A stretch of DNA of 64,000 nucleotides from a bacterium (GTDB lineage Bacteria; SZUA-182; DTGQ01): positions 99,645-163,644 of the forward strand of contig JBFLZW010000010.1 in NCBI GenBank assembly GCA_040755755.1, read 5' to 3'. Below the pieces are notes generated by a model, which worked only from the letters and a program-made list of their open reading frames with translations, ran no database searches and was not told where the DNA came from. A program made the translations under genes and the position numbers. Shown here piece by piece: positions 2,105 to 63,877 of this stretch. Each line of letters opens with the position of its first letter. Within the stretch, counting starts at the first letter, position 1.

Positions 2105-3577
2105 CTAGTCAGAACAATCTGCCAGTGGTGTTTTGGCCCTCACCTTGCCGATGATGTTTTTCACATCATCGAGGATGTCTCTTGAAAAAATAGATATATA
2201 CAATACGTAGAAAGCTGCACCGATCAGGATGTAGGTGGACATGCTGAGAATGGATACAGTATCTTTGAAGAGGGCAGTTTTTATCAGGGTGATGAAGATA
2301 AACATCAGGAGTGACCCGATCAGGGGCATGCTGACTACCTTAAAAAACCTGCTGAATGAGACGTCAACCTCTTTCAACACATGGTAGAGAAGGTAGCTGA
2401 ATTCCAGCGGGTAGATAATCAGCCAGGAGAGGGCAACAGCGAGCAGGCCATACTGAATGGTAGCAAGGAAAGCCAGAGGCAACAGGGTGGCGCACAGCAG
2501 TGAATAGGTGAATAACTGCCTGGTTTTTCCAACGGATTTAAGAACAGTAAGTAACACACCGGTGTATGAGTAGGCGATCCCTAAAAGGCAGAATACTCTG
2601 AAAACAGGGAGACTGGGAAGCCATTTTGGCGTCATGACAATGACAAAAATTTCTTCGGAAATGGCAGACATACCCAGCAGGATAGGAAGGGAAAAGATTG
2701 AAATAAAATAGGTGAGCTTTAAGAAGTAATGCTGTAGATCTTCTCTGCTATCCTGAACTTTTGTGAATACCGGGTAGGTGACCTTATTAACTATTACAAT
2801 GACCTTATCGATAGCTATTCTGGAGAAATCCATGGCCACTCCATAGTAACCCAGTGATTTCTCGCCAAGGAATTTGCCAATGATAATCGAATCGCTTTTT
2901 TGACAGACGTAATTCAGCAGGTGGTGGCCGGTTATGGGGATTCCGAATCTTAGGAGGTTATAGATCCTCGAAAAACTGAAATAAAGCTGCGGCTTCCAGC
3001 GGGAATAGTAGAGGATGATAATGCAGGAAGCAAAGTTTTGCAGCAGCGTGCACATAACGAGGCTCCAGACACCATATCCCATGAATGCCATCACCAGACT
3101 GACTGCATTGCTGAAAACAACCGATATAAACTCCGCAAGCGATATTTTTTTGAATTCAAGATTTCTTGCCAGCAGGCTATTCGGTATTCCCTTTACGGCC
3201 ATGAGGAAGGTTACAATACTTAAGGCCCGAATTATATGGATAAGCTCCTGATTGCCGAAAAACAGGGCGATGATTTTGGCAAGGAACCAGGTGGCGAAAC
3301 ACAGGCACAATCCGAAGGTCAATGAAAACCAGAATGCGCAGTTGATATCCTCGATGGTCAGATTTTTTTTCTGGATCACGGTTTCGCCCATGCACAGATC
3401 GTATACGATAACGATGACCGCTTCGTATACCAGGGCCATGTTCATCAATCCAAAATCGTTCGGGGAGAGCAACCGAAGCCAGGCCAGGGTCACGAGCCAT
3501 GAAAACAGTTGTCCAAAAAATTTGGCGGCTCCAATCCAGAATACACTTTTAACGGCCTTTTCGGCTAAATCCCGCAT
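2105..3577 (-). CDS. Wzx-like polysaccharide flippase (MOP superfamily)
   Basis: The protein (about 490 aa) is made almost entirely of hydrophobic segments, about 12-14 predicted membrane helices, after a short basic N-terminus (RDLAEKAVKSVFWIGAAKF). That start and the LSPNDFGLMNMA stretch are typical of Wzx/RfbX-type flippases, which move lipid-linked oligosaccharide units across the inner membrane. I chose the ATG at 3577 rather than an in-frame start at 3643. The later start overlaps the upstream amidotransferase by only 13 bp, while the earlier one would lie deep inside it. It is the last gene of the long minus-strand exopolysaccharide operon. No kinase or polymerase domain is present. 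Confidence 0.85.
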   Translation of the reverse strand: MRDLAEKAVKSVFWIGAAKFFGQLFSWLVTLAWLRLLSPNDFGLMNMALVYEAVIVIVYDLCMGETVIQKKNLTIEDINCAFWFSLTFGLCLCFATWFLAKIIALFFGNQELIHIIRALSIVTFLMAVKGIPNSLLARNLEFKKISLAEFISVVFSNAVSLVMAFMGYGVWSLVMCTLLQNFASCIIILYYSRWKPQLYFSFSRIYNLLRFGIPITGHHLLNYVCQKSDSIIIGKFLGEKSLGYYGVAMDFSRIAIDKVIVIVNKVTYPVFTKVQDSREDLQHYFLKLTYFISIFSLPILLGMSAISEEIFVIVMTPKWLPSLPVFRVFCLLGIAYSYTGVLLTVLKSVGKTRQLFTYSLLCATLLPLAFLATIQYGLLAVALSWLIIYPLEFSYLLYHVLKEVDVSFSRFFKVVSMPLIGSLLMFIFITLIKTALFKDTVSILSMSTYILIGAAFYVLYISIFSRDILDDVKNIIGKVRAKTPLADCSD

Positions 3578-5505
3578 GTCAGAATTTCGAGCTCCCCGGA
3601 AAAATTTACGCTTGGTTGAGTGTCTATAAATATCCTGTGCCAAAGCTCCAGAGTGATGAGCGATATAATCGCTGCCTCCGAACCCGATGCGTAATCGGTA
3701 CGGCCTGACACAAAGTCTTCAACCATTTTGGTTATAAATTTCCTGCTGAAATAGCCACGGTTTAAGGTTCGGGAATCCAGGAGTATATCCCTCACATAAT
3801 GAGGTATCTTCCTGATAAGCCATTCCTGAATTGGCATGGCAAATCCCTGTTTCTTCTTTTTCAGAGTATATTCCGGAAGCAGGGGCCGCAAAGCTTCCTT
3901 CATGAGGTATTTTCCAGCGCTGCCCCTGATCTTTAAATCCGTTGGGATGGTAAGGATAAACTCTACCAGTTCGAGATCATGAAAGGGACTTATGGCATTG
4001 AGGCCATGAGCCATGGTCATCCGTTCCACCTTGACCATGAGATCATCCGGAGCATAGGAAATCATGTCGAAGTAAAGAATTTTATTCAAAAGGTCCTGAT
4101 CCGAAACATGCTCATAGATAGAGCGGGCTATGGAAAGGGGATTGTTTTGGGCATTGATCTTCAGCATGTCAGCGCTGTAGAGACATTGTTTGAGCAGCTC
4201 CGGGATCGGCATATCCAGGATTACCCGCTGTTCCTCGATCGGATGGGTCTGCCGGTAAACCATTCTCTTGGTCCTGTCCAGCAATGAGTTGCTGCCCGCG
4301 GACAAGGTCATGCCTGTCAGCATCCGGTTTACGCTTTTGCATTTGAGAAGCCGGAACGGCAGGCAGTCATGCTGTAAGCTGCGGAGGGCTTTAAAATGGT
4401 GACCCGATCCGCCAAGAAGCTGGTCCGGAAAGTCGCCGGTTAAAACATCGCTTCCCTGTTCCCTGGCAAGTTGAGCGGCAAAATAGGATGGGATAGCCGA
4501 GGTATCGGCAAAAGGTGCATCGTGGTGATAGACTAACTTTTCCAGCAGTGAATGAAAGTTATCATCAAAATCAACCAGAATTGTATAGTGGTCAAGGCCG
4601 AAATAGTCAGCGACCACTTTGGCGTCATTTATTTCATTATACCGTTCTTCCTTGAATCCTGCGGTAAATACCTTGAACGGCTGCCTCCCTTTGAGCTCAT
4701 ACATGACAGCGGCAACTGCACTCGTATCGAGTCCGCCACTCAGGAAAGCTCCGGCATCCGGGTATTTCCTCAAGCGTCTTGATACTGCATTTTTGAAGGT
4801 CTCAAGGAATTTTTCCCGATAATGGTTTTCCGGTGTATCCTGGCCATTCAACCGGTATTTGATTTCCCAGTATGATTTTTCACTGATATTTCCATCTTTG
4901 CAGACGAGTATATGCCCCGGTTTCACCTGGTAGATTGATTCAAATAACGTGTCCGGGTTTGGAACATATCCATAGGAGAGAAAATTATTCAGACTCCGTA
5001 AACTGACTGATTTTTCAAAGTCCTCACAGGTAAGAATTGCCTTGATTTCTGAAGCGAATATCATGGCATTTTTCAATCTGGAATAAAAAAGAGGCTTATA
5101 ACCCAACCGATCCCTGATGAGTAATAATTGAGGTATACTCTCATCCCAGACGGCAATGGCGTATGAGCCGTCGATTTTCTCTCCAAAATTAACTCCGTAT
5201 TTGCTGTAGAGCTGGAGGATAAGATCAGCGTTCGAAAGAGAACCAGGATCGAAGCTCTGGTCGCGTACGCTGAAGATATCACCATCTATCACCGCCAACA
5301 GCCTCTTCGAATTGTCATAAACATACTCTTTGAGATATCCATGCGGTTGGTGAGACCTGACGCCAAAAGCCCCCCAGCCTTTCAAAGACTGCACCTTGCA
5401 GTCTGCTCCCCGGTGTTGCATCGCAGCAACCATCCGGGAAAGTAACTCCTCCCCTGTACCTGGTGCCTCAGCGGACCAATAGGTAATGCCGGCTATTCCA
5501 CCCAT
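3565..5505 (-). CDS. Asparagine-synthetase-like amidotransferase lacking the catalytic N-terminal Cys
   Basis: 646 aa with the class-II glutamine amidotransferase domain at about 1-190 followed by an Asn-synthetase domain. The latter contains the PP-loop FLSGGLDTSAVAAV (near 255) and the C-terminal KKKKQGFAMP block. Family members start MCGI, where Cys2 is the glutaminase nucleophile. Here codon 2 is GGT (Gly), so the protein starts MGGIAGI. Glutamine hydrolysis should therefore be lost, leaving ammonia use or a different ATP-dependent amide-forming reaction, as known for beta-lactam-synthetase-like relatives. It overlaps the ATP-grasp gene by 13 bp and is translationally coupled to it, suggesting sequential modification of the same sugar or lipid substrate. 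A second, intact homologue lies at 11828-13771. Confidence 0.88.
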   Translation of the reverse strand: MGGIAGITYWSAEAPGTGEELLSRMVAAMQHRGADCKVQSLKGWGAFGVRSHQPHGYLKEYVYDNSKRLLAVIDGDIFSVRDQSFDPGSLSNADLILQLYSKYGVNFGEKIDGSYAIAVWDESIPQLLLIRDRLGYKPLFYSRLKNAMIFASEIKAILTCEDFEKSVSLRSLNNFLSYGYVPNPDTLFESIYQVKPGHILVCKDGNISEKSYWEIKYRLNGQDTPENHYREKFLETFKNAVSRRLRKYPDAGAFLSGGLDTSAVAAVMYELKGRQPFKVFTAGFKEERYNEINDAKVVADYFGLDHYTILVDFDDNFHSLLEKLVYHHDAPFADTSAIPSYFAAQLAREQGSDVLTGDFPDQLLGGSGHHFKALRSLQHDCLPFRLLKCKSVNRMLTGMTLSAGSNSLLDRTKRMVYRQTHPIEEQRVILDMPIPELLKQCLYSADMLKINAQNNPLSIARSIYEHVSDQDLLNKILYFDMISYAPDDLMVKVERMTMAHGLNAISPFHDLELVEFILTIPTDLKIRGSAGKYLMKEALRPLLPEYTLKKKKQGFAMPIQEWLIRKIPHYVRDILLDSRTLNRGYFSRKFITKMVEDFVSGRTDYASGSEAAIISLITLELWHRIFIDTQPSVNFSGELEILTCGI

Positions 5506-6755
5506 GAGGATATCCTTTGTGTTACTTGTTTTGACATATCAGTGATCATCAGGGCAAGGGAAATAAGGAATGGCAGGGGATCCTTTCTATCCCAGACCGC
5601 GTAATTGATGTTCCCGCCCAATTTATGAAGTATATCCCCCGGTTTTTTTCTCCGGGTGAACAATTCGCTGGTGAAATGCTTGATAAAGCCATCTTCGGCA
5701 ATCCAGGTAGCTGGCTGATATTTTGAGGAGGAGGATGGAGGCCTGCCTTTGCCAGTGAGGTCAGAGTAGGCGACCAGAGGGAGGTTGATGCCAAAGCTTC
5801 CACTCAGCCGGTGCTGGTCCCAGAACCGGGGATTTATTTCAATCAGGTAATAGATTCCGGTGGCAGGGTCCCTTTTGTACTCAATTTCCGATGTGCCGGT
5901 AAATCCGATAAATTTTAACAGGCGTTTGCTGCATTCAGTGATTTCATTATTAACAGCGCTTTGAACAACAATCCCGGTACCGAACCTCTCCGGTCTCTGG
6001 ATTCTCTTTCGGGTATTGAAAGAAACCAGAACATGAGAATGCCGGTCACAATAGGAACAAAAGGTATAAATATCGTCATCCGCACCCTCGATATATTCCT
6101 GCAGCAATACCGTAGGATTGATGTGCTTGAATCTATTGTATTCCCGCCAAAGAGTTTTCTCGGATGGGCAATAAATCGCTTTCCTTTTTACAATCTTCCA
6201 AATTCTGTCTTTTCTCCAGTCAGCCGCACGAAGAGGTTTTATGATAACCGGGTAGTCAATTTGAGAGCTTATTGAACCTAATTCATCCTCTCTGCCAATT
6301 ACATATGTTTTCGGTGTAGTGACATTGCACCTTTTGGCAGCTTCAAACAATTTCCACTTATCCATGACCGTATTCAGGGTGTTCTTTTCCGGCAGGGCAA
6401 TGATAAAATAGGGTTCGAGTTTTTCCCGGTACCTGTTGAGGAAAAGAATATCATGGTCTCTGGTGGGGAAGATGACCGGCTTTTGGGTTTCTCTTTGAGC
6501 AAGGGCTATCAGAAACTGAGAGAGCCTCTCCGGTTCGGCCTGAGAATCCGGAGAATGGAAAAAATTAACATATCTGCTATAATTACCGCATGCCCATCTT
6601 TTCGATCCTATTCCGAAAACCTTTATCCCTGTTTCGGCAAAAGATCTGGCGATGCCAAGTCCCGTATATGCTAAGTTGAGTATGAATACCGATGGAAATC
6701 CACGTGAATCGAGGTCAACTTCCGTATCAAAATCAATTTTTAATTTTGGATTCAA
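5493..6755 (-). CDS. ATP-grasp ligase (carbamoyl-phosphate-synthase-like)
   Basis: 420 aa. After an N-terminal pre-ATP-grasp region (IARSFAETGIKVFGIG, about 34-49) comes the ATP-grasp fold. It has the PVIIKPLRAADWRKD nucleotide-binding loop near 170-185, LLQEYIEGADDDIY near 220, and the metal-binding LIEINPRFW near 310. Such enzymes form carboxylate-amine bonds through an acyl phosphate. Stand-alone ATP-grasp proteins of this type are common in exopolysaccharide clusters and probably attach an amino acid or similar group to a sugar; the substrate cannot be deduced. It overlaps the GNAT gene upstream (23 bp) and the amidotransferase downstream (13 bp). Confidence 0.85.
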   Translation of the reverse strand: MNPKLKIDFDTEVDLDSRGFPSVFILNLAYTGLGIARSFAETGIKVFGIGSKRWACGNYSRYVNFFHSPDSQAEPERLSQFLIALAQRETQKPVIFPTRDHDILFLNRYREKLEPYFIIALPEKNTLNTVMDKWKLFEAAKRCNVTTPKTYVIGREDELGSISSQIDYPVIIKPLRAADWRKDRIWKIVKRKAIYCPSEKTLWREYNRFKHINPTVLLQEYIEGADDDIYTFCSYCDRHSHVLVSFNTRKRIQRPERFGTGIVVQSAVNNEITECSKRLLKFIGFTGTSEIEYKRDPATGIYYLIEINPRFWDQHRLSGSFGINLPLVAYSDLTGKGRPPSSSSKYQPATWIAEDGFIKHFTSELFTRRKKPGDILHKLGGNINYAVWDRKDPLPFLISLALMITDMSKQVTQRISSWVE

Positions 6756-7944
6756 TCTCGTGCTTTCCTCTTCTTATGAGGTTGTAACAACCGGTTAACA
6801 ATCTGTACATATTCTCTTGCGTGGAGCGTCTGGATATCCGTATTTCCAGTAAATCCCGTGAATAGTTCTCCCACATTTCCTTATAACCGGCACCCTGGCC
6901 TCCTATCTTGAGAAAATCATACTCCTTATAGCCTTCATGAATCGCCTCCTCTATGCAGTAGCTGTGCAGCAGCAATCCAAGCCGTACATGGGTATTTTCG
7001 TGAGGAATAAGCCCAGCCTGGAAAAAATGAATTTTGTTGTCAAAGGCAAAATTATAATTAGCGGCCACGGGTCTGTTCTCTAAATGTAAAAAGCACAGCT
7101 TTAACCAGCCGTTATTGAATGCCAGAGGTATCAGTTTCTTATGGAATGCCTTCCATTTCCGGCTGAAAAAAGCTCCGGGCTGTCCCTTGCCCTGCCATCT
7201 GTGCTGATGCAAGGCTTCCAGATCATCGAATGCTTTCGAAAGCTCATGTTCATGCTGAACCACATGATAGGTTCCTGACAGTTTATTGAATTCTTTTCTC
7301 CCTCTGGTGATCTTGTAGCGGAGACTTCCCTGAATGGATTGAAGATATTCATCCCAGGTATCAGGGAGTTTAATCAAGATGCTCGGAGTGCGTTTGGTGA
7401 TTTGAAAATTTAACCCATTCTTTCGGGCAGCCTCATGGAGCAGGGTTGAAGCAGGAGACTCGGCGGAAACGTTTTCTAAAATTATTTCATCCCAGGCAGG
7501 GAGACCGGAAAGGCATTTCACCAGGCCATCGATAAAGTCTTTTTCTCTGCCTTCCCGAATGATCAAATCAAGATAATCGGAAACAACGTTTCTCTCACTG
7601 GTTCTGCCGGAACCGAGGAAACCTGCGGTTTTGTACGGTAATAACTTGAAATACCGGATATTTTCACGGTGTATCGAAAGAGGAGCTATCCCGATGATTT
7701 CCTCACCTTCAGATCCGAGAATAATAAACAGATATCTTTCATCACCATAGATTTCCCACCAGGTATACAGCCATTCCCAGGTCTGGGTTATGGCCCTGTT
7801 TGAGCTTCTCTGAACAAGTCTGTTCCAGACAGTGTGAAGGCTTTCAAATTCCTCGGAATTATCAATAATCCTGAAACTTAATCCGCGAGGCGAGGATAGT
7901 TCCGTATCCAGTATTCTGGATTTTATCAGAGCTGAGTTACTCAA
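6733..7944 (-). CDS. GNAT/FemAB-type acyltransferase (CelD/BcsL-like)
   Basis: 403 aa with two GNAT-like halves. RITQTWEWLYTWWE-type N-terminal sequence and the C-terminal FQAGLIPHENTHVRLGLLLH and YDFLKIGGQGAGYKEMWEN blocks are typical of acetyltransferases of the CelD/BcsL group associated with exopolysaccharides. The only good start is TTG at 7944. It overlaps the stop of the preceding rhodanese as TTGA and has GGAAAA about 8 nt upstream, so its translation appears coupled to ribosomes ending at 7941. This coupling is indirect support that the rhodanese frame is read through its internal UGA. The acceptor is unknown. Confidence 0.82.
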   Translation of the reverse strand: MSNSALIKSRILDTELSSPRGLSFRIIDNSEEFESLHTVWNRLVQRSSNRAITQTWEWLYTWWEIYGDERYLFIILGSEGEEIIGIAPLSIHRENIRYFKLLPYKTAGFLGSGRTSERNVVSDYLDLIIREGREKDFIDGLVKCLSGLPAWDEIILENVSAESPASTLLHEAARKNGLNFQITKRTPSILIKLPDTWDEYLQSIQGSLRYKITRGRKEFNKLSGTYHVVQHEHELSKAFDDLEALHQHRWQGKGQPGAFFSRKWKAFHKKLIPLAFNNGWLKLCFLHLENRPVAANYNFAFDNKIHFFQAGLIPHENTHVRLGLLLHSYCIEEAIHEGYKEYDFLKIGGQGAGYKEMWENYSRDLLEIRISRRSTQENMYRLLTGCYNLIRRGKHEIESKIKN

Positions 7945-8411
7945 TGTTTTCCAATGAGAATTTTTCCATTTCTTACGAGGACAAAACCTGCTTTCGGCAT
8001 CTCATCAAGCCCGCCTAAGATACACAGTGCATTTGTATATCCCTGCTCACGTAATAAGATCGCTGCACGAGCGCTCTGTGCCTCACCCGCTCACCTGCAG
8101 AAGAGTAAAATTGTCTGGTCTTTTGGATATGGGAGGTTAATTTTCTCCAGCGTCGATAAAGGAATGTTAACAGATCCAAGAATACGTCTGCTCTTGTAGT
8201 AATTTGCTCCATCAACTGAAATCAGGATGGCTTTGCCGGATTTATAGATTTCAAATGCCTCTTGAATGCCAATTCTTTTTGCACTTTGAGTTTCTTCTCG
8301 ATACTCGTTAACTATATCTTCATGTGAGGCATTCTCGGATGTCGCCCAAACCGGGTATGGAGGGCACAAGAGCAGGATACCAAGGGCAAGGACCGGAATA
8401 ATTTTCAGCAT
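7941..8411 (-). CDS. Secreted rhodanese-like protein, probable selenoprotein (in-frame UGA at codon 107)
   Basis: 156 aa if the UGA at 8091-8093 is read as selenocysteine. ATG 8411 has GAGG five nt upstream. Residues 1-23 are a signal peptide (MLKIIPVLALGILLL...VWA). The rhodanese fold follows with ILISVDGANYYKSRRILGSV and then the active-site loop LLFCR-UGA-AGEAQSARAA. The same frame continues with LLREQGYTNALCILGGLDE to a normal stop at 7941. The UGA sits where CxCP-type rhodaneses (pattern CxCPxEAxSAR) carry their second Cys, giving CRU. A small hairpin follows the UGA at SECIS distance (8065-8081). Sulfurtransferase-like thiol/selenol chemistry in the periplasm is inferred. Otherwise it is a pseudogene with one nonsense mutation. 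Confidence 0.75.
8065..8081 (-). promoter_or_regulatory. Candidate bacterial SECIS hairpin
   Basis: On the transcript, nine nt after the UGA, GCAC-A-GA pairs with UC-GUGC around an apical GCGC loop. The loop starts 17 nt after the UGA with a G, within the spacing and loop rule known for bacterial SECIS elements recognised by SelB. The stem is short, so the call is tentative. Confidence 0.45.
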
Positions 8412-8443: not shown

Positions 8444-9391
8444 TTAAAGAATTTGAGATAATTCCCAGGGGTACCACCGCTTCAGTGCAAATGCTTCAGT
8501 ATGGTGATTGTTTGAACCTATTATCGTTGTTACTGCACAGTTAAAATGAAGTTTCCGCAATATATTGAACATCTCAGGGCTGTACTGGGCTTCTTTGCCA
8601 AATGGATAAGCAAAACTGCTCACCTGTTTACCAACCTTTTCCTCGATCGTTTTTTTTGATTGCTGGATTTCCTCTTCAGCCACAGCAAGCGGTATCCTGG
8701 TCAATATCGGATGGTTGACGGTGTGGGCCCCAAAGGAAATCCCCTGTTCAGACATCTCCCGGATTTCATCCCAGCTTAACATGAGGTTATCAAGCTCCCT
8801 GAAATCATTAACTGCAAGTCTTATGCCCAATTCATCGAGCAGACGGAGCCGCTGCTCATCGGGACAATCTTTGAAATATCTCATGACCTTCTCGGATGCA
8901 GCAAACTTTTCCTCTCTGGTTCGCAGGGGAGCGGTAATGCGCTTATCAGCGGCAAGCTCCAGATATGTTTTGTCTGTTTTCATAAACATGAAGCGCAGCT
9001 TGATAAACCAGGGTGCGATCCCGCTTTCAACATAGCTCGTAGTTACAAAAATAGTAGCCGGAACCTGATATTTTTTCAGAATCGGGTAAGCTTTCTCAAA
9101 GTTATCTTTGAACCCGTCATCAAAAGTGATGGCTACACAACCGCGCAGGGATTCTCCTTTTTGGGATCTCTCCATGATTTCGTCAAGTGACATAACATGG
9201 TAATTCTTTACCAGGAAGGCAATTTGCCGTTCAAAATGACTGGTTGATGTTTCCGGATAAAAGCCGTTGGGCTTATCGGTTATCATATGATAAGGCAATA
9301 CGAAAAATCTCTCTAAAAGAAGACTGAAACGGTAAATTTTAGCCTTAAATAACAACTGCTTGCATGCGCTTTTCACTGGGGACGGTACCAT
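8444..9391 (-). CDS. Polysaccharide deacetylase (NodB/CE4 family)
   Basis: 315 aa. The CE4 motifs are visible: FDDGF at 90-94 (motif 1, metal and base Asp) and GAHTVNHPIL near 220 (motif 2, metal-binding His pair), followed by SFAYPFGKEAQYS (motif 3-like Arg/Pro loop region). It should remove N- or O-acetyl groups from the nascent or finished polysaccharide. There is no clear signal peptide, only a basic N-terminus with a hydrophobic patch (about 20-35), so it may act in the cytoplasm or at the membrane. Five bp separate it from the upstream glycosyltransferase. A second deacetylase domain in this cluster is fused to the exosortase. Confidence 0.88.
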   Translation of the reverse strand: MVPSPVKSACKQLLFKAKIYRFSLLLERFFVLPYHMITDKPNGFYPETSTSHFERQIAFLVKNYHVMSLDEIMERSQKGESLRGCVAITFDDGFKDNFEKAYPILKKYQVPATIFVTTSYVESGIAPWFIKLRFMFMKTDKTYLELAADKRITAPLRTREEKFAASEKVMRYFKDCPDEQRLRLLDELGIRLAVNDFRELDNLMLSWDEIREMSEQGISFGAHTVNHPILTRIPLAVAEEEIQQSKKTIEEKVGKQVSSFAYPFGKEAQYSPEMFNILRKLHFNCAVTTIIGSNNHHTEAFALKRWYPWELSQIL

Positions 9392-11827: not shown

Positions 11828-13771
11828 TTATTTTTCTTGGATATCCTGGAGCCAGTTTCTTCCCCAAAACTCAAAAAACAGGATACTCCACAATTCTGCC
11901 GAATACTCTCCTGATCCGGCCTGATGCTCCTTCCACAGAGTGGCAACGGTTTTTGTATTCAGATACCTTTCACAAATGGAGCCTTTCTCGAAGACGGAGC
12001 TTTCAAACATGGTTTTTAAATCATTCTTCAGCCACCCGGAAATCGGCATCGAAAACCCCATTTTTCTCCGATACAAAATTTCCTCCGGGACCAGGGGTTC
12101 GATTGCTTTTTTGAATATGTACTTTGGCTTCTTCCCCTTGAGTTTCAGGCTGGAAGGTATGGTTGCCACCAGTTCCACAAATTCGTGGTCCAGCAGCGGG
12201 ACTCTCACTTCGAGGGCATGGGCCATACTGGCCCGGTCTACCTTGGTGAGGATATCGTCAACCAGATAGGTTTTAAAATCAACATATTGTACTCTGGAAA
12301 GCGGATCGTCGGTATTGGCCCGTTCATAATATTCGTGAAACAGGCGGGATGGATGATAGCCATGCAGCTCTTTTTTCAGGTCGGGATTCAGAATGCTTTC
12401 CCTGAACTGGCCAAAGCAGGACATGGAGTTATAAAACCCTTCCACGGGATCAAGAGAGAGGTTTGTCAAAAGCGTTTTGGCCCGAAACATCTGGGGCAGC
12501 CAATCCGCCTTGGGATACAATCTGGCTAAGGTACCGATGATATTCTCTCGTACCGAAGCAGGGAAAAGGGACCGGGCGGTATTTTCCAGCCGGTCGAAAT
12601 AGTAGCGCCGGTAACCGGCAAAATTTTCATCACCGCCGTCACCGGAAAGCGCCACCGTCACTTTTTGCCGTGCTGCCCAGGAGACGTAATAGGTGGGAAT
12701 GGCAGAGGAATCAGCAAAGGGCTCATCAAAAAACCAGGTCAGTTTTTCCAGGGCCTCTACGGCATTTGGCGAGATCTGCATTTCATAATGATCCGTTTTA
12801 TAGCGATTCACCATCAATCGGGCATAGGGGAGCTCATTGAACTTTTCTTCATGAAAGCCGATGGAAGTTGTCTGCACCGGCTTTGGCACGAGGAGGGACA
12901 TCAGGGCCACGACTGCACTGGAATCCACCCCGCCACTTAAAAAGGCACCTAACGGCACCTCGCTGATAAGCCTGATGGAAACAGCCTCCTTCAGTTTGGC
13001 CAGAATCGCTTCACACCACTCACTCTCTGTCTGGTGGGTTGTTTCACCGAAATTCAGGTCCCAATACCTGTTGAGCGTAATTTCGCGGGATCGTACCGTG
13101 AGGGTGCATCCGGGGAGGAGCTTGGCGATTCCCTGAAAAATAGTTTTCGGGGCCGGGACATAGAGCAGGGAGAAGTAGTCATTGAGGGCTTCCAGGTTGA
13201 GGTCTCTGGATATTTCGGGATGTTGCAGAATGGCCTTTATTTCTGAGCCGAACAGGAATTTGGTCTGGTCTGCATAAAAATAGAGAGGCTTTATTCCAAG
13301 CCGGTCCCTGGCTAAAAAGAGCGTCTGAGCTTTTTCATCCCAGATGGCGAAAGCGAACATGCCCCGCAGCCTCTTGACGCACTCTTCTTTCCATTCTTCA
13401 TAGGCATGAATAATGACTTCGGTATCGCAGTTGGTTTTGAACCGATGTCCTTTATTGCGCAGCTCGGTTTTCAAGTCGGGAAAATTATAGATCTCGCCAT
13501 TAAAGGTAATCCAGACGGTTTCATCCTCATTGGTCATCGGCTGGTGACCTGAAGAAAGGTCGATGATACTGAGCCGGGTATGAACGAAGCCGACATTCCC
13601 TTTTCCGGGAGTGATCTTCCACCTGGGTGTTGGTGGATCGGCCTGGGTGCTGTTCAGAAAATATCCTGCATCATCAGGCCCACGGTGTTTCAGCACTTCA
13701 GCCATCGTCGTGAGCAAAGATTCGCCAACCGGCCGATCCTGGTAATAGAGTATCCCTGAGATTCCGCACAT
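11828..13771 (-). CDS. asnB: Asparagine-synthetase-like amidotransferase, exosortase A system type
   Basis: 647 aa starting MCGISGILYY, with the nucleophile Cys2 present. I chose ATG 13771 because it places Cys at position 2 and lies 7 bp after the upstream gene; a longer frame to 13846 would overlap that gene. Glutaminase domain about 1-200 (LKHRGPDDAGYF, FVHTRLSIIDLS, FNGEIYNF), synthetase domain with FLSGGVDSSAVVAL near 265 and LSGDGGDENFAGY near 360. Its context and length match the amidotransferase group found next to exosortase A. It contrasts with the Cys-less paralogue at 3565-5505. The substrate is presumed to be a sugar acid or lipid-linked intermediate. Confidence 0.9.
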   Translation of the reverse strand: MCGISGILYYQDRPVGESLLTTMAEVLKHRGPDDAGYFLNSTQADPPTPRWKITPGKGNVGFVHTRLSIIDLSSGHQPMTNEDETVWITFNGEIYNFPDLKTELRNKGHRFKTNCDTEVIIHAYEEWKEECVKRLRGMFAFAIWDEKAQTLFLARDRLGIKPLYFYADQTKFLFGSEIKAILQHPEISRDLNLEALNDYFSLLYVPAPKTIFQGIAKLLPGCTLTVRSREITLNRYWDLNFGETTHQTESEWCEAILAKLKEAVSIRLISEVPLGAFLSGGVDSSAVVALMSLLVPKPVQTTSIGFHEEKFNELPYARLMVNRYKTDHYEMQISPNAVEALEKLTWFFDEPFADSSAIPTYYVSWAARQKVTVALSGDGGDENFAGYRRYYFDRLENTARSLFPASVRENIIGTLARLYPKADWLPQMFRAKTLLTNLSLDPVEGFYNSMSCFGQFRESILNPDLKKELHGYHPSRLFHEYYERANTDDPLSRVQYVDFKTYLVDDILTKVDRASMAHALEVRVPLLDHEFVELVATIPSSLKLKGKKPKYIFKKAIEPLVPEEILYRRKMGFSMPISGWLKNDLKTMFESSVFEKGSICERYLNTKTVATLWKEHQAGSGEYSAELWSILFFEFWGRNWLQDIQEK

Positions 13772-13778
13772 CGCTTTA

Positions 13779-15101
13779 TCAATCAGCTCCTGACAATATG
13801 GTTGAATGGTGACTGTATTCTCTCCGGGCGGCCAAATCACGGTCATGGCCTTCCTGCAGGAGAGACTCCAGTTTTTCCATGCAGGCGGACCAGTTATACC
13901 AGGCTCTTACCTGCTGGCGCGCCCTGGCTCCCAATTTTGCCCTGAGATCTTCATCTTCCAACAGGGTTATTGTTGCACGCGAAATGCTGTCCTGATCGTT
14001 GCCTACCAGGAGATGTTCTCCCGGTACTGCATGAATGCCCTCGATGGTTTTGGAAGTGGTAACTATAGCCCTGCCCATGGCCATAGCCTCCAAAACCTTG
14101 TTCTGTACTCCCCGGCCCAGCCGCAGAGGGATGACACAAATATCAGCTCTCTGGTAGTAGGGCCTTACATCTTCGACAAAGCCGGTTACCCTGATAGTAT
14201 CTCCATTATCGAGGGCTCTTACCTTCCGTCCGGGATTGCTGCCGACGATATAAAACCGTACTTCCGGTACGGCTTTCCTGATCATGGGGAAAATCTCCTT
14301 ACTGAACCAGATCACTCCGTCCGCATTAGCATGATAGTCCATGGCCCCGGTAAACAGGAGAACAGGATAGCCGCTCTTTTTCCCGGGAGCTGAATACAGC
14401 GAAGAGTCCGGAGGGAGAGGATGCAGCTCGTCAGGATCGAAATAGTGATAATCGACGCCGTTGGCAATGACGGTCAACCGGCAGATATGAGGATTCCGGG
14501 TTTGAAAGATCTCAGCCTCTTTTTGGGAAATGACTACCGAGTGGTCAAAAAACTCCGCAGTTTTCCTCTCGTAGCGGGCCAATCTTCGGCCCTCCAGCCG
14601 ATAGATGCGGGAGAGGGGAAAGGATGCAGTCTGTCCGTACTGGAGCCATTTATCAGAATCCACATCGCAAAAATCCATAACCAGGCGGGGAGCAGAGGGT
14701 GCACCGGAGCTGCGCCTGCCAAGGGCAGGCGAGCGGAAGATGTACTCAGCCATCGGCGAGGAAAAGCACAGAATGCAATCAAAAGCCACAGTTGCCAGCA
14801 AATGGTCAACTGCCGTTTGCAGGGTTTTGGCATAAAAGTAGGGTATGGAAAGAGATTCTCCGGAAAAAAGAGCGAATACGCTTTTCAATTTGGCAATCCG
14901 GGGATTGACAGGCACTATCTTCACCTGCTGACAATAAGCCAGAAGATCGTCTCCATAGTGAAGATCTTCCGGATTATCCGCCAGACAGCAGAGATAAATC
15001 TGGTGCTTCTTTGATAACCATTTGATCTCATTGAATGAGCGAATCTTATCCCCTTTGTTGGGAGGATAAGGGATTCTATGCGCAAGGTAAAGTATTTTCA
15101 T
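13779..15101 (-). CDS. Exosortase-associated sugar transferase (GT4, EpsH1-type)
   Basis: 440 aa. The N-terminus MKILYLAHRIPYPPNKGDKIRSFNEIKWL is characteristic of the glycosyltransferases found beside EpsH/exosortase genes. The C-terminal half has the GT4 nucleotide-sugar binding block (GRGVQNKVLEAMAMGRAIV near 345-365) with the conserved Glu. It should act in repeat-unit assembly. A short, low-complexity insertion (RRSSGAPSAPR, about 127-137) departs from the family pattern. It is followed after 7 bp by the intact asnB homologue. Confidence 0.88.
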   Translation of the reverse strand: MKILYLAHRIPYPPNKGDKIRSFNEIKWLSKKHQIYLCCLADNPEDLHYGDDLLAYCQQVKIVPVNPRIAKLKSVFALFSGESLSIPYFYAKTLQTAVDHLLATVAFDCILCFSSPMAEYIFRSPALGRRSSGAPSAPRLVMDFCDVDSDKWLQYGQTASFPLSRIYRLEGRRLARYERKTAEFFDHSVVISQKEAEIFQTRNPHICRLTVIANGVDYHYFDPDELHPLPPDSSLYSAPGKKSGYPVLLFTGAMDYHANADGVIWFSKEIFPMIRKAVPEVRFYIVGSNPGRKVRALDNGDTIRVTGFVEDVRPYYQRADICVIPLRLGRGVQNKVLEAMAMGRAIVTTSKTIEGIHAVPGEHLLVGNDQDSISRATITLLEDEDLRAKLGARARQQVRAWYNWSACMEKLESLLQEGHDRDLAARREYSHHSTILSGAD

Positions 15102-15124: not shown

Positions 15125-16273
15125 TTATACCAGATACTTCGACAGGGATGGTCCGATAGTCTGGGTAACCCAGGGGGGCAGCTTTTTCCAGAGCTTTATC
15201 TTTCTCTGGTACTTGGGATTTGCAGGGCTGAGATTGGGCATTTCCGTGAGCCTGTTCAGGAAGTACTGGTAATACAATGGCTTTGGCTCAAAACCCCAAT
15301 GTCTTTTAAAATGGAATGATCCGGTATTTTCCTTGCTTCTTCCGAAATCGAAAAAGCGATAGCCGTTTTCACAGCCATATTTCATTAATTGCCAGTACAT
15401 AAAGTCATTGGGTGCCAGATCCCGGTATTCAACCAGGGAGCCCGCATAATACGGGAGAACCTGGTCTTTATAGAAGAACGTGAGAACTCCGGCAATCGGC
15501 AGCTTGTCCTGGTTCTGGATGATGAGCAGAAGGCAGTTTTCCTTGAATTCATCGCAGATGTTCTCGAAAAACCTGAAGGTAAAAAGTGGTGTTCCCAGAT
15601 TATGGAAGCTCCTCGCCAATACACTGTAAAATGACTTCAGGTTATGGTTTCCAAACTCGAAAGAAAGGTTAAATTTTTCACCCTGCCGGATCATGCGCCG
15701 GGCTTTTCTTGGAATGGCCTCCATGTTTTGGTCAAGGTCCGGGAATATCTCCCGTTTGAAGTTATAATAGAGGCTCTTGAGTGCAAGCCCATTGAGCAGT
15801 TTATCTTTATACCGGAGCTCAAGATAGTCGAGTCCCTGGCTTTTGGTAATTTCCACAGCCCGTTGCAGTAATAAATTTTCTATCTCGGTGTTATTGGCAA
15901 GTGCACCCCCGACTTCTGCAAAAGGGCTGGAGATTATAAACTTTCCAAAAAGAAAGCTTTTGATGAAGAAGAGAGGAAGTACGCCTGCAAGGGTGGTTTG
16001 AGATGATCTCTGATCATCAGGGGTAATGGCTTCCGGCGGGTCGAAGGTCTGCTCGGCGAGCAGGTAACAGGGACTGTGCCCGAAGGTCTTTTCGACAATA
16101 TTTTTCCAGCCGATGAGGTGAAAAAAACTCCCATCCGGATGTGCTTTGACGTAATTATCCCACGCTGGTTGATCATTTGGCCGTAACTGCCTGATTGTTA
16201 TGGTCGCTTTTCTGGAATCGGTTTTCTGAAGGTCGATCATCTGCTGACTTGAGTGAGGTGTAAGAGTGGCCAT
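15125..16273 (-). CDS. FemAB-like protein of PEP-CTERM/exosortase systems
   Basis: 382 aa with two GNAT-like domains. SFFHLIGWKNIVEKTFGH (about 49-66) and the C-terminal FDFGRSKENTGSFHFKRHWG (near 325-345) are the hallmark blocks of the FemAB-like family linked to exosortase loci. Related Fem proteins transfer amino acids to peptidoglycan, and the role here is unproven. The ATG at 16273 has AGGAGA about 12 nt upstream. It overlaps the exosortase fusion gene by about 100 bp, so an internal start such as ATG 16240 is possible. It belongs to the same operon. Confidence 0.85.
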   Translation of the reverse strand: MATLTPHSSQQMIDLQKTDSRKATITIRQLRPNDQPAWDNYVKAHPDGSFFHLIGWKNIVEKTFGHSPCYLLAEQTFDPPEAITPDDQRSSQTTLAGVLPLFFIKSFLFGKFIISSPFAEVGGALANNTEIENLLLQRAVEITKSQGLDYLELRYKDKLLNGLALKSLYYNFKREIFPDLDQNMEAIPRKARRMIRQGEKFNLSFEFGNHNLKSFYSVLARSFHNLGTPLFTFRFFENICDEFKENCLLLIIQNQDKLPIAGVLTFFYKDQVLPYYAGSLVEYRDLAPNDFMYWQLMKYGCENGYRFFDFGRSKENTGSFHFKRHWGFEPKPLYYQYFLNRLTEMPNLSPANPKYQRKIKLWKKLPPWVTQTIGPSLSKYLV

Positions 16274-18074
16274 TGGTGTTCACTTTCTCCTGTAATCCGT
16301 GCTCCTTACCGTCGATATCCATAAGATACTGGAAGCAGGTCGTGAAGTGGCATTGTTCGAAATTCTGTACGAACTGGAACAAGTTAGAGAGAGTTTTATT
16401 CAGGTTTGTGTAGTGTCTGAATTTCCCGTAGAGTGAGGCTTCTTTTACCACAGGCTGCTCCGGGTCAATTTCCCACGGATGCAAATAGAAGAGATAAGCA
16501 TGGTCATTTTTGAGTATGTATCGAACACCCATTATAAATGCTGGAAAGGGTATCAGGCGGAAATATCCACCTCCTCCCCAGGGAAGAACGCAATCCGAGA
16601 AGGTAATATTACTGATAGGAAGCTCGTATAAATTTTCCGAAACCTTGTGAGCGATACCTTTTTTCCAATTTCCGGCTAAAGCCAACCGCCCGTATCGAGC
16701 ATTGACGCCGAATGAATTAAAACTTGAATCGTAAAGGTACCCGCACTCTTCAACCATTTTCAGAATTTCATCACTGATAGAGAAGCTCGGAGCGCGGTAG
16801 CCAAGAACAGGAAAGCCAATGATATCTTCCAGGAGCATTTTACTCCTGGCAAGATCATCTTCCATATTTTGGCTTGATTGCCGGGAACAGAGCATATGGT
16901 TATATCCATGAGATGCGACTTCATGTCCGCGGGAATGGATCTCCCGGACAAGGCCGGGGATTCGCTCGGCGAGCCACCCAAGTACAAAGAATGTGGCTTT
17001 TACTTTGGCCTCGTCAAAAAAATCCAATAAGCGATAGGTATTTTTCTCTACTCGCAGATCTTTATTCGGCCAGTCAGCAAAGGGGATAACCGGCTTAAAG
17101 TTTTCCACCTGGAACCAGTCTTCAACATCAATGGTCAATAAGAGAGAAGGTCTTTCAGGGGGTGAATTGGAGAAACCGATTTCATCTTTTCTCTCCGGGC
17201 AGTGGTTATATATGAGCGGTTCCTGATGGACTACTGTTTTCCCACCTGTTCCGAGCCGGCCAAGAACATTATGGAAGCCAAGGAGCAGGAGTAATCCGAG
17301 AAGGAAGACCACCATTCCTGAAAACTCATGGAGGAAACCCTGGGCAACTGCGGCACCAAAGCGGCTGGCAAACCCGGCTGTCATACTGAGCCGAAACACA
17401 TTAGCCATGATGGCAATGGGTATGGCTGAGAGAAACAATAGCCATTTCTTTATCCAGGAATGACTGGAAAAATACGCGAATGCCGAGCTCAGGGCCAGGA
17501 GTGAGACCAGTGAGCGAAGGCCGGAGCAGGCATCCACGACCTCCAGGGTCGTATTGGCCAGGTACAGAACATTTCCCTCCCGCACAATGGAAATCCCGAT
17601 GGTTTTGATGAGGTTTTCAGCCATAGCCGAGGAGAATATCTGCAGGGGAAAGGCAATCGCATTCCAGATGATGGCCGGGATCGGGACCATGAACAGGAGA
17701 TAACCCAGGGGAAAAGCGATCTTGCGGGTAATTCCTTTTCCCAGGAGAAAGAACGAAAGGCCAAAGAGAGATATGATGACAGCCAGTCTCATGGTAAACA
17801 GCTCGGCACCGAGGTTGCTCACAATATGCACTGCCATCCCAAGAACGAGGAGCACTATTCCCCAGTTGCCTGATTCCACAGAATACGAAGACAGCTCTTT
17901 TCTCTTATGCCATATCATCGAGACCGCAAGAAGAGGAATGAAAAAACCATGTGAATAGTTAGGGTCTTCCATCCAATCCCTGCCGAGCTCAATAAGAGTA
18001 GTGCTAAAGAGCATAAAGAATGAAGACAGTAAAATAGTCATATAAAGGTAAGTTGAGGAGAGGAGTTTTTTCAT
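16173..18074 (-). CDS. xrtA: Exosortase fused to a PEP-CTERM-locus polysaccharide deacetylase
   Basis: 633 aa in one uninterrupted frame. Residues 1-275 are an exosortase: about eight membrane helices and the catalytic triad positions Cys183 (EVVDACSGLRS), Arg228 (NVFRLSMT) and His249 (GFLHEFSG). Residues 310-600 are a CE4 deacetylase of the type normally encoded as a separate gene beside exosortases: TIDVEDWF at 314-321, SHGYNH at 388-393, GYRAPSFSI near 425, and a C-terminal LHPWEIDP. The exosortase half should cleave PEP-CTERM proteins at the periplasmic face, and the fusion would tether the deacetylase there. It lies between epsI and the FemAB-like gene. If a stop was lost between two once-separate genes, the fusion is derived but still open and full length. 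Confidence 0.9.
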   Translation of the reverse strand: MKKLLSSTYLYMTILLSSFFMLFSTTLIELGRDWMEDPNYSHGFFIPLLAVSMIWHKRKELSSYSVESGNWGIVLLVLGMAVHIVSNLGAELFTMRLAVIISLFGLSFFLLGKGITRKIAFPLGYLLFMVPIPAIIWNAIAFPLQIFSSAMAENLIKTIGISIVREGNVLYLANTTLEVVDACSGLRSLVSLLALSSAFAYFSSHSWIKKWLLFLSAIPIAIMANVFRLSMTAGFASRFGAAVAQGFLHEFSGMVVFLLGLLLLLGFHNVLGRLGTGGKTVVHQEPLIYNHCPERKDEIGFSNSPPERPSLLLTIDVEDWFQVENFKPVIPFADWPNKDLRVEKNTYRLLDFFDEAKVKATFFVLGWLAERIPGLVREIHSRGHEVASHGYNHMLCSRQSSQNMEDDLARSKMLLEDIIGFPVLGYRAPSFSISDEILKMVEECGYLYDSSFNSFGVNARYGRLALAGNWKKGIAHKVSENLYELPISNITFSDCVLPWGGGGYFRLIPFPAFIMGVRYILKNDHAYLFYLHPWEIDPEQPVVKEASLYGKFRHYTNLNKTLSNLFQFVQNFEQCHFTTCFQYLMDIDGKEHGLQEKVNTNGHSYTSLKSADDRPSENRFQKSDHNNQAVTAK

Positions 18075-51945: not shown

Positions 51946-54900
51946 GCGGCACCCGCCCTCGCGGGCGGGTGAGGATTGAAACCTGACAATCATAAGGGTG
52001 AAAGAGCTCCAGACTTCCAGCGGCACCCGCCCTCGCGGGCGGGTGAGGATTGAAACTGATACTTGAAATGGTACCTCCAACCTTTCCCCGGCGGCACCCG
52101 CCCTCGCGGGCGGGTGAGGATTGAAACTGCCCGATAATCTACGCACGGCCGTGTTGGATAATGGCGGCACCCGCCCTCGCGGGCGGGTGAGGATTGAAAC
52201 TGCCGACCACATACGATGCTGAATAGCAATCTGCTTGCGGCACCCGCCCTCGCGGGCGGGTGAGGATTGAAACTTTGCCCTGTAACCTGCACGAGTGTAT
52301 GCGCGGGAGCGGCACCCGCCCTCGCGGGCGGGTGAGGATTGAAACACCAATTTGGGGAGGATAACAACCTCTGTTATCCTCTCGCGGCACCCGCCCTCGC
52401 GGGCGGGTGAGGATTGAAACCGCGGAGATTGACGCACTCTCCCCAGGTTATCGGGCGGCACCCGCCCTCGCGGGCGGGTGAGGATTGAAACCTTGCCAGG
52501 ACGCCAGCATTTCGGCGTCGGAAGAGCGGCACCCGCCCTCGCGGGCGGGTGAGGATTGAAACCGTACAGCGATAGGGCCTGCTTGTCGTCGCTTTTTACC
52601 GCGGCACCCGCCCTCGCGGGCGGGTGAGGATTGAAACGTTTGATCATGCCTCTGGCTAGCAAGAAATGAACCAGCGGCACCCGCCCTCGCGGGCGGGTGA
52701 GGATTGAAACTTGAATTTTGTCTGAATTACATTGAAGATGACCGGCGGCACCCGCCCTCGCGGGCGGGTGAGGATTGAAACGATCTCCTCAATGATGATG
52801 ATGAGGATGATGAGGAGGGCGGCACCCGCCCTCGCGGGCGGGTGAGGATTGAAACCGCACTAATGATGATGGTGAGGGTCTGTGGATCCGCGCGGCACCC
52901 GCCCTCGCGGGCGGGTGAGGATTGAAACAACCTATCGCGCGCATACACTCGTGCAGGGTATAAGCGGCACCCGCCCTCGCGGGCGGGTGAGGATTGAAAC
53001 AGCAACCTGAATCAATTGCACATCGCTCGTTTCCGCGGCACCCGCCCTCGCGGGCGGGTGAGGATTGAAACATATGTTCCTCCTGGGCTCCAGATCAGAA
53101 GTCCGGCGGCACCCGCCCTCGCGGGCGGGTGAGGATTGAAACTCCGGGATGCGTATCCCGGAGAACCTCAACCTCCCAGCGGCACCCGCCCTCGCGGGCG
53201 GGTGAGGATTGAAACTGGAGTAAAGTTGAGGAATGATGTCAGACCTTTCGCGGCACCCGCCCTCGCGGGCGGGTGAGGATTGAAACCCAAACACCTTAAA
53301 TCTATCGTCTATCTCTACCACGCGGCACCCGCCCTCGCGGGCGGGTGAGGATTGAAACAATCTGAGCCCCAATCAGAATTCTAACATAATCCCAGCGGCA
53401 CCCGCCCTCGCGGGCGGGTGAGGATTGAAACTCGATATACCATGATAGGTATTCTTTACCCATTTCGAGCGGCACCCGCCCTCGCGGGCGGGTGAGGATT
53501 GAAACATAAATTCGGGCAGAGATTTAGTCCAATCACATACCGCGGCACCCGCCCTCGCGGGCGGGTGAGGATTGAAACTGTACAGTTTACCTTTTGATGA
53601 GCAAAAAAAGGAGCGGCACCCGCCCTCGCGGGCGGGTGAGGATTGAAACTCGCTGATCGGGTCCAAGTGGATATCGGCATCGAGCGGCACCCGCCCTCGC
53701 GGGCGGGTGAGGATTGAAACAAAAACCTGCTGGTTTTGTTTCAAGCGCTCGGAATATTGCGGCACCCGCCCTCGCGGGCGGGTGAGGATTGAAACTCCGG
53801 GATGCGTATCCCGGAGAACCTCAACCTCCCAGCGGCACCCGCCCTCGCGGGCGGGTGAGGATTGAAACTTCCCCCAATTAAACAAGGCCCTGATATGTCT
53901 TGCGGCACCCGCCCTCGCGGGCGGGTGAGGATTGAAACATGATGAGTATTAGGATTTACATTTATTTTATTGCGCGGCACCCGCCCTCGCGGGCGGGTGA
54001 GGATTGAAACCAATGTGGGAGGTATTGCATGGGCGTCTACTTTGGCGGCACCCGCCCTCGCGGGCGGGTGAGGATTGAAACAGGAACATTTGCATATATA
54101 ATTTTTGATCTACCTGCGGCACCCGCCCTCGCGGGCGGGTGAGGATTGAAACCACCTCATGTATCGAGGTATTGAAACAGCCAAAATCCAGCGGCACCCG
54201 CCCTCGCGGGCGGGTGAGGATTGAAACATTGTCCGCTCACGGAAGAAGAAAATTAACCTTCGCGGCACCCGCCCTCGCGGGCGGGTGAGGATTGAAACTT
54301 ATCTCCTCGATCCTGCGGATTGGCCGCAGGATGGCGGCACCCGCCCTCGCGGGCGGGTGAGGATTGAAACTGGAAGTCGGGGACCACGGTACTGGACTAT
54401 AGCCAGCGGCACCCGCCCTCGCGGGCGGGTGAGGATTGAAACTTTGATCTCATCCAAATCTTATGTTTGCCGACCTCGCGGCACCCGCCCTCGCGGGCGG
54501 GTGAGGATTGAAACGGCCCCTCCGATCCTCGTAGTGCCACTAAAAAAGCGCGGCACCCGCCCTCGCGGGCGGGTGAGGATTGAAACAACTTTTTGTCAAT
54601 CGGCAGAAAATTTATTCCATCGGGCGGCACCCGCCCTCGCGGGCGGGTGAGGATTGAAACGTGGAGCGCCAGCAAATTGAGCTCTCGGTGCAGCGCGGCA
54701 CCCGCCCTCGCGGGCGGGTGAGGATTGAAACATAGGTCTTTGGCTCAAACTCTGGCAATTCACATAGCGGCACCCGCCCTCGCGGGCGGGTGAGGATTGA
54801 AACAATCTGAGTATCAGCATCTGTGATCTCTACCTTATAATGCGGCACCCGCCCTCGCGGGCGGGTGAGGATTGAAACTCTGGTTTGTTCTTTTGAGCCA

Positions 54901-57900
54901 AAAATCTTTCAGAGCGGCACCCGCCCTCGCGGGCGGGTGAGGATTGAAACGATCCGAGTTAAAATCGATTTTAACCTTGACTCATGCGGCACCCGCCCTC
55001 GCGGGCGGGTGAGGATTGAAACCGACCTAAATTGGTCAAATCCTCGATTCTGGGGAATGCGGCACCCGCCCTCGCGGGCGGGTGAGGATTGAAACTCTCT
55101 GCCGGTACTCTTTGCCTTTCCGGGCAAAAGGCGGCACCCGCCCTCGCGGGCGGGTGAGGATTGAAACATGTTTGGTTCCATTTCTTTTGCTTACCGATCG
55201 AGCGGCACCCGCCCTCGCGGGCGGGTGAGGATTGAAACTATCTGTAGCCACAATGGGATTGTGTTATCTGGATATGCGGCACCCGCCCTCGCGGGCGGGT
55301 GAGGATTGAAACTGATACTTGAAATGGTACCTCCAACCTTTCCCCGGGCGGCACCCGCCCTCGCGGGCGGGTGAGGATTGAAACACCGGGAAGAATCCAA
55401 ATTTGTCGGAAATATCTATAGCGGCACCCGCCCTCGCGGGCGGGTGAGGATTGAAACACTCATCCGACCCATAGTCTCTTTAATCGCCCACAGCGGCACC
55501 CGCCCTCGCGGGCGGGTGAGGATTGAAACAAGATTACGATCAGGATGTTTTGTCGGGCTCGATCGCGGCACCCGCCCTCGCGGGCGGGTGAGGATTGAAA
55601 CTCATTCTCCGGATCCTGAGAAATGAACGATGGAGGCTGCGGCACCCGCCCTCGCGGGCGGGTGAGGATTGAAACCTGGTGTTCCCCAGGGGAGAATTTC
55701 GGTAGTATTTCGCGGCACCCGCCCTCGCGGGCGGGTGAGGATTGAAACACACCGTGGAATCCTGCGTCCTCGATTTCCAATGTGCGCGGCACCCGCCCTC
55801 GCGGGCGGGTGAGGATTGAAACTTTGATACGCCGGTTAAGTTTTTTACCGGCATATCCGGCGGCACCCGCCCTCGCGGGCGGGTGAGGATTGAAACGCGC
55901 CAGTGCTTATAAACATAACTTTCGCTTAACTGCGGCACCCGCCCTCGCGGGCGGGTGAGGATTGAAACTCTCCCCTGGTTGGCCGGTGGCCAGGGGAGTT
56001 ATCAGGCGGCACCCGCCCTCGCGGGCGGGTGAGGATTGAAACGTGGAGCGGCATCAGGTTGAGCTCTCGGTGCAGCTACAGCGGCACCCGCCCTCGCGGG
56101 CGGGTGAGGATTGAAACGTCGAGCGCCAGCAAATTGAGCTCTCGGTGCAGCTGCGGCACCCGCCCTCGCGGGCGGGTGAGGATTGAAACTGATACTTGAA
56201 ATGGTACCTCCAACCTTTCCCCGGCGCGGCACCCGCCCTCGCGGGCGGGTGAGGATTGAAACTTGAGTAAACTTTTGACATTATCCAGCACGGCCGGCGG
56301 CACCCGCCCTCGCGGGCGGGTGAGGATTGAAACACGATATCCACTTCACCGTTTTTCCCGATAATATGCGGCACCCGCCCTCGCGGGCGGGTGAGGATTG
56401 AAACTATGAATACAATAATTACAATTAGTTACAGGGCAATAGCGGCACCCGCCCTCGCGGGCGGGTGAGGATTGAAACCCATATCCCATACTCGATCGGT
56501 CTTTTGCCAGTAGCGGCACCCGCCCTCGCGGGCGGGTGAGGATTGAAACAATTTCCGGGAGTAATTTAGCTATTGCCGAGCGAGCGGCACCCGCCCTCGC
56601 GGGCGGGTGAGGATTGAAACACCCAAAAACTTCCCGCTTTTCCCAAACACCCTAAAGCGGCACCCGCCCTCGCGGGCGGGTGAGGATTGAAACTGCTGAT
56701 TTTTTGCTGCCATTTTGCACCGATTGTAGCGGCACCCGCCCTCGCGGGCGGGTGAGGATTGAAACGTCATTACCATGAGCTCAGCGCAACCCGTTTCCAG
56801 GCGGCACCCGCCCTCGCGGGCGGGTGAGGATTGAAACAAACTAGAGCAAAATGCTTTAGTCAGACATGATGAGCAGCGGCACCCGCCCTCGCGGGCGGGT
56901 GAGGATTGAAACCCATTCTCCTCAATCGGCCTAGTGGTCCTCCCCAGGCGGCACCCGCCCTCGCGGGCGGGTGAGGATTGAAACTTGCCAGGGGAGGGGG
57001 CACCAGGTTTATTGCGACAGCGGCACCCGCCCTCGCGGGCGGGTGAGGATTGAAACGTCGAGAGGGTTATATCATATATATATATAGGCGGGCTGCGGCA
57101 CCCGCCCTCGCGGGCGGGTGAGGATTGAAACAACAAGGGGGTTAATGATCGACGCTTCAAACTCACGCGGCACCCGCCCTCGCGGGCGGGTGAGGATTGA
57201 AACACGTAATCTTTCGCCAATCTCCCAAATATCCGGCAAGCGGCACCCGCCCTCGCGGGCGGGTGAGGATTGAAACATTTTTATATCTCCTCATCCGGCC
57301 GGTTTCCCTCCCGCGGCACCCGCCCTCGCGGGCGGGTGAGGATTGAAACAAATTTGAACCAACTATTGTCCACCTACCACCGCCTGCGGCACCCGCCCTC
57401 GCGGGCGGGTGAGGATTGAAACTGGCTGGCTATGGTTGACCGAATTCGTCCGACATCGCGGCACCCGCCCTCGCGGGCGGGTGAGGATTGAAACGAATGC
57501 CCCCAGCTATCCCCAGAGGACGAAACAAGCGGCACCCGCCCTCGCGGGCGGGTGAGGATTGAAACGGAATCCATCGGTATCAATGCCAAGCTCGGCTATC
57601 GCGGCACCCGCCCTCGCGGGCGGGTGAGGATTGAAACATGTCAGGAGGGATTATGCATGAAAGGTCATATCGCGGCACCCGCCCTCGCGGGCGGGTGAGG
57701 ATTGAAACAACATTATCCAGCACGGCCGTGCGTAGATTATCGGGCGGCACCCGCCCTCGCGGGCGGGTGAGGATTGAAACTCCAGAGAATTTCTCGAATT
57801 CCTCCCATAATACTGCGGCACCCGCCCTCGCGGGCGGGTGAGGATTGAAACCATTCCTCCCCAACTATGGCTGTCCTCCCCTGGTCGCGGCACCCGCCCT

Positions 57901-63838: not shown

Positions 63839-63877
63839 CTACCAAATCAGCCAATTGTCTATCATTGGTCAAATGAT

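Follow-up and report, generated by a model that had tools for sequence, protein, structure and literature searches.

Does the in-frame UGA that interrupts a rhodanese gene in this bacterial genome end the protein, or does it encode selenocysteine (Sec)? The gene lies on the minus strand of the 64,000-nucleotide stretch of DNA that was analysed (the window), from 8411 to 7941, and its UGA is found at 8093-8091 (minus strand), within the motif C-R-U if read as Sec. Counting from the ATG, the UGA is residue 107 of a 156-residue product that combines a signal peptide-like N-terminus with a single rhodanese domain. We consider it very probable, on sequence evidence, that the UGA of this exported single-domain rhodanese is translated as Sec, because the Sec machinery of the host is complete, a hairpin shared by the family follows at a fixed distance and most relatives carry UGA at the same column.

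Reading frame, fold and neighbourhood

By direct reading, the gene starts with an ATG (8411-8409) that has a Shine-Dalgarno-like AGAGG ahead of it, and a GTG at 8432 is a possible alternative start. With the TGA taken as a residue, the translation is MLKIIPVLALGILLLCPPYPVWATSENAS...TILLFCR-U-AGEAQSARAAILLREQGYTNALCILGGLDEMPKAGFVLVRNGKILIGKH. Its first residues, MLKIIPVLALGILLLCPPYPVWA (8343..8411, minus strand), read as a probable Sec-pathway signal peptide, and from this N-terminus the rhodanese is probably a periplasmic or exported protein.

The sequence-only reading had proposed that the UGA splits a rhodanese in its catalytic loop and that the frame runs on as rhodanese to a stop overlapping the next gene. 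Both proposals were confirmed. The loop around the UGA is FC-R-UGA-AGEAQSARAA, and a PF00581 match (33.8 bits against a cut-off of 22.2) spans the UGA, showing that both halves form one rhodanese domain. The genome search also reported this locus as a single match containing '1 TGA'. After the UGA come 49 sense codons and then the stop TGA (7943-7941), overlapping the TTG (7944) at which the next gene begins. In the rhodanese frame the codon log-odds per codon came to 0.18 up to the UGA and to 0.10 beyond it, both lower than in the adjacent genes (0.22-0.32); each of the other five frames scored negative. Since the score after the UGA is positive in the gene's own frame alone, the downstream half is coding. 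These data also bear on the possibility that the UGA terminates translation and that the 106-residue fragment functions on its own. Such a fragment would comprise the signal peptide and the N-terminal half of the domain, but it would end one residue past the catalytic Cys, with neither the active-site loop nor the final portion of the fold, and it would leave the in-frame conservation of the downstream half unexplained; we regard this as extremely improbable.

An AlphaFold2 model built with 55 relatives had a mean pLDDT of 87.7 (core: 95-98), and the nearest solved folds in the PDB were single- and multi-domain rhodaneses. In the model Cys105 follows the strand 100-104 and is succeeded by a loop carrying Sec107 and E110 and by the helix 111-122. 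The residues C105, C/U107, E110, S113, A114, R115, A117, G124, G133 and G134 are invariant in the alignment, a pattern which suggests that the Cys-x-Sec pair forms the active site together with the Glu and the Arg. The window protein is nevertheless a divergent one, without the DVR motif, without the Pro after Sec and without GGxxAW.

The rhodanese lies within an exosortase/XrtA exopolysaccharide run of amidotransferases, glycosyltransferases, a FemAB-like protein and an exosortase joined to a deacetylase. The next gene (6733..7944, minus strand; 403 aa) has no NCBIfam match, and the upstream gene (8444..9391, minus strand) is polysaccharide deacetylase-like. Elsewhere in the window, the exosortase and the XrtA-type polysaccharide deacetylase share one 633-residue reading frame (16173-18074), and two XrtA/PEP-CTERM-type amidotransferases (3565-5505 and 11828-13846) have TIGR03108 as their best NCBIfam match, both below cut-off. 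A very large CRISPR array (51946-64000) with 165 exact copies of the 37-nt repeat GCGGCACCCGCCCTCGCGGGCGGGTGAGGATTGAAAC and 164 spacers, 162 of them distinct, extends to the point where both window and contig end. None of the other in-frame UGA candidates scanned within the window resembled a second selenoprotein.

The UGA column among homologues

In a first homologue search of 97 genomes, unrelated genomes had UGA at this column too, with loops such as CAUPQEATSAR (L022) and CTUPSEASSAR (L030). When the NCBIfam model NF041203 was run over 386 diverse genomes, all four matches that exceeded its cut-off contained a TGA, as did nearly every one of its strongest matches. We also scanned a public genome collection with a degenerate pattern that fixed only the letters TG of the codon, so that TGA, TGC, TGT and TGG all qualified; this pattern, blind to the third base, was chosen to avoid a bias toward TGA. 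The scan yielded at least 118 matches, and among those listed 113 had TGA, three TGT, two TGC and none TGG. The titles of the listed matches included Chloroflexi, Acidobacteria, Rokubacteria, Gemmatimonadetes, Nitrospirae, Delta- and Gammaproteobacteria, Myxococcota, Eremiobacterota and Methylomirabilota. One TGA match, L172, was set aside as its translation is not a rhodanese.

The column is thus mostly UGA and otherwise Cys among the pattern matches listed. The earlier statement that U replaces the second Cys of the loop understates this: with 113 UGA against five Cys among the matches listed, UGA is the usual state in this branch, and the window gene need not descend from a Cys form.

The recurrence of the same UGA in relatives from many phyla also speaks to the quality of the sequence. 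The assembly is a draft of 88 contigs, and a TGA produced by a sequencing or assembly error would be conceivable on that ground; the single substitution would have to strike precisely the Sec codon of the family, with the SECIS element already in place, and we give this next to no chance. It is just as hard to credit that the host, by a code variant or a suppressor, reads UGA as another amino acid. UGA serves as an ordinary stop in this host, including at the end of the rhodanese gene itself, TGG is absent from the column among the 118 matches listed, and both tRNA-Sec(UCA) and sel genes are present.

No counterpart of the window rhodanese was found in the same-genus genome G001, and no relative was found in viral contigs, giving no indication of a phage link. 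Rhodaneses of this type with TGA inside occur in several copies in some genomes (three in G106, three in G362 and two in G373). In G093, which also has UGA copies, one relative (L060, ~1635, minus strand) carries Ser at the Sec column (CTSPEEATSAR). The CxU rhodanese L030 (1471-2100) of the same genome follows, in the same reading frame, a hydrophobic membrane-protein sequence that we take to be DedA-like.

The hairpin after the UGA

With the U of UGA numbered 1, the candidate SECIS hairpin of the rhodanese gene occupies nt 17-37 (8057..8077, minus strand) and consists of a lower helix AGA/UCU, a G.A mismatch and an upper stem CGCU/AGCG closed by the apical loop CGUGC (8065..8069, minus strand), which fits the family loop CG[U/G]G[U/C]. 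The pairs are C21-G33, G22-C32, C23-G31, U24-A30 and G18-C36, with the mismatch at 20-34, a pair that is G-C or G-U in most relatives. The sequence-only reading had drawn a different hairpin (GCAC...GUGC), which has to be replaced: it folds at just -3.8 kcal/mol, and the homologues conserve an overlapping but distinct register, with the loop starting after 21 nt.

We scored 109 UGA copies from the matches listed; L172 and copies with short flanks were excluded from the model and from the synonymous-site table. No gaps were needed between the UGA and the hairpin in any of the 109, with the stem at 20-24 and 30-34 and the loop at 25-29 throughout. Third codon positions in the UGA copies are frozen only inside the hairpin. 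The Ala codon at 22-24, inside it, is GCC in 108 of the 109 (entropy: 0.08 bits), and the Ala codon at 13-15, outside it, uses all four codons (1.79 bits). The other hairpin codons are similarly restricted (Val: GTG in 64 of 65; Arg: CGT or CGG only; Ser: AGY in 108 of 109). Compensatory changes were found at 21-33 (C-G, U-A and G-C), at 18-36 (several types) and at 24-30 (C-G, once U-A), and both the covariation score and the number of paired cells exceeded those of all 500 shuffles and of every slid register. Beside the window, U24-A30 in place of C24-G30 occurs in one copy among the matches listed, L093 (Anaerolineae UTCFX2). In three of the five Cys homologues listed, the pair 24-30 is broken. 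Synonymous recoding with the window's local codon usage gave the four Watson-Crick pairs and the loop in 1.3% of draws, and stem, loop and Ser AGY together in 0.33%.

A covariance model trained on the homologues only, with the window excluded, ranked the rhodanese hairpin first in the 64 kb window (20.4 bits, E 0.0024) and second of six matches genome-wide (E 0.2). Of the six genome-wide matches, the rhodanese one alone has a UGA where it is needed, 16 nt ahead of the start of the model. The best genome-wide match (C45:56829, 23.8 bits) was rejected, having neither a UGA at the offset nor a selenoprotein reading frame, and the third is a CRISPR repeat. A second match in the window (63208-63228, 19.3 bits) was dismissed as a chance match in the GC-rich repeat region of the CRISPR array.

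The bSECIS model places the loop 16-37 nt after the UGA and specifies a loop of 3-9 nt, an upper stem of at least 4 bp, a G among the first two nucleotides of the loop and an energy of -7.5 kcal/mol or lower (PMC13188914). In its geometry the rhodanese hairpin agrees with this model (21 nt, loop CGUGC, 4 bp, G at loop position 2). In its energy it does not, as the conserved hairpin reaches -5.1 to -5.7 kcal/mol of minimum free energy against the limit of -7.5 kcal/mol. Homologue hairpins have a median of -9.4 kcal/mol, and the same stretch reaches just -4.5 in some UGA homologues. In our reading, -7.5 kcal/mol is the filter of a search program and not a biochemical requirement. Folding of the naked RNA, which had been suggested for the 60 nt after the UGA, gave no support: across 35-60 nt the folds were no better than those of shuffled sequences, and the conserved pairs had ~4-23% occupancy (60 nt). 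Plain folding alone would argue against a SECIS element, and it was the comparison of homologues that settled the matter. An Rfam scan of the region produced only matches below gathering scores, which is uninformative because bacterial SECIS elements are too variable for a general family. The weak stem is the main soft spot of the Sec reading.

The weak hairpin would also fit a decaying gene, whose UGA had arisen as a nonsense mutation and whose remaining frame had not yet begun to drift. The divergence of this copy, which lacks several family residues (DVR, Pro, AW), and the lack of a counterpart in G001 point in that direction as well. A chance nonsense mutation, however, would have had to strike the one column where relatives have UGA, with a matching hairpin at the exact offset; frame and coding signal last to the coupled stop, and the family-invariant C, E, S, A, R and GG are all retained. 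Decay is therefore highly unlikely in our view, and translation of the UGA as Sec is the reading that we follow below.

Selenocysteine machinery and relation to known rhodaneses

The window genome (5.26 Mb, 97.6% complete) was searched for the sel genes, which had been named as a check on the Sec assignment, and selA, selB, tRNA-Sec(UCA) and selD are all present. The adjoining selA and selB lie on contig C31 (89910-91283 and 87859-89754, respectively), and selD (L208, 1501-2424) scored over its cut-off and has a single in-frame TGA of its own, in the N-terminal motif where one is expected (GVKSAGUAS). Judged by its sequence, selD is a selenoprotein gene too.

A second full selB is found on contig C2, and the genome has two different tRNA-Sec genes, both with the anticodon UCA; there are precedents for two tRNA-Sec genes (PMC5330540). 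The two SelB proteins are 38% identical, and the second adjoins the second tRNA-Sec (L004, L005, L012, L013, L204, L211, L215). This SelB2 and tRNA-Sec pair recurs in G001, with 78% identity over the compared part of SelB2, which argues against contamination. The host might run two parallel Sec-insertion systems (SelB1/tRNA-Sec1 and SelB2/tRNA-Sec2) that read different SECIS classes, the divergent rhodanese hairpin with its U-A closing pair and G.A mismatch being served by one only, but we think this unlikely.

For the rhodanese, SelB bound to the hairpin after the UGA would deliver Sec-tRNA(UCA) to the UGA. Judging by fold and motif, Cys105 would be the nucleophile, as is classical for rhodaneses, and would accept sulfane sulfur to form a persulfide. 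Sec107, which lies two positions further along the loop, could then resolve or reduce this persulfide, or the Cys in a different oxidised state, through a Cys-Sec selenenylsulfide that a periplasmic reductant would reopen. In the cell envelope the protein may serve as a sulfane-sulfur or thiol redox enzyme. We put forward this specific chemistry of Cys105 and Sec107 tentatively, at somewhat less than even chances.

Standard gene callers would truncate the rhodanese just past its catalytic cysteine. The CxU rhodaneses form a broad selenoprotein group (Chloroflexota, Acidobacteriota, Rokubacteria, Gemmatimonadota, Nitrospirota, Delta- and Gammaproteobacteria and others), far wider than the curated model covers, and the near-frozen SECIS together with the prevalence of UGA over Cys (113 to 5 among the matches listed) provides a signature for annotating many more of them. 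Their well-conserved SECIS is usable for testing SelB recognition and, as the loop nearly always carries Sec, what selenium adds to sulfur-transfer chemistry becomes directly testable.

The single-domain rhodaneses GlpE, PspE and YgaP share the fold, with the catalytic Cys between strand and helix. Their loop is shorter, of the CxxGxRS kind, and to our knowledge they have no second chalcogen residue two positions on. TsoB, a rhodanese/DsbD fusion (NF045694), is also a rhodanese-type selenoprotein; it differs in motif and architecture, and the window protein scores 9.6 against its cut-off of 805.

The sequence-only reading stated that Sec-containing rhodanese-related proteins had been described before, and this is correct: the CxU rhodanese is form 3, with the model NF041203 and the reference protein TKB26178.1 (PMC13188914, which credits its reference 13), and is also included in a review (PMC9312934). 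NF041203 (rhodanese_LYCAU, 'rhodanese-related (seleno)protein') is the best NCBIfam match of the window protein (46.8 bits, E 2.2e-12), which shares with it the C-x-U at the same column, the E and SAR that follow and the GG near the end. With 46.8 bits against a curated cut-off of 115, the window protein is a relative and not a member. It has F-C-R-U-A where the family has Y-C-A/S/T-U-P, it lacks DVR and, unlike in the family, its gene lies inside an exosortase/XrtA polysaccharide run. Among 55 aligned CxU members, six reach the level of the NF041203 cut-off (with the E-value as proxy). The CxU rhodaneses of Chloroflexota (e.g. L195, L154 and L124) and of G032, G318 and G180 (L022, L070 and L080) show ~30-35% identity to the window protein, among the highest found, and share its loop and the position of its hairpin; unlike it they keep the Pro after Sec, and those scanned fall below the NF041203 cut-off. 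The CxU rhodanese is thus a known selenoprotein type, and the window copy and much of the breadth of the group lie outside the curated family.
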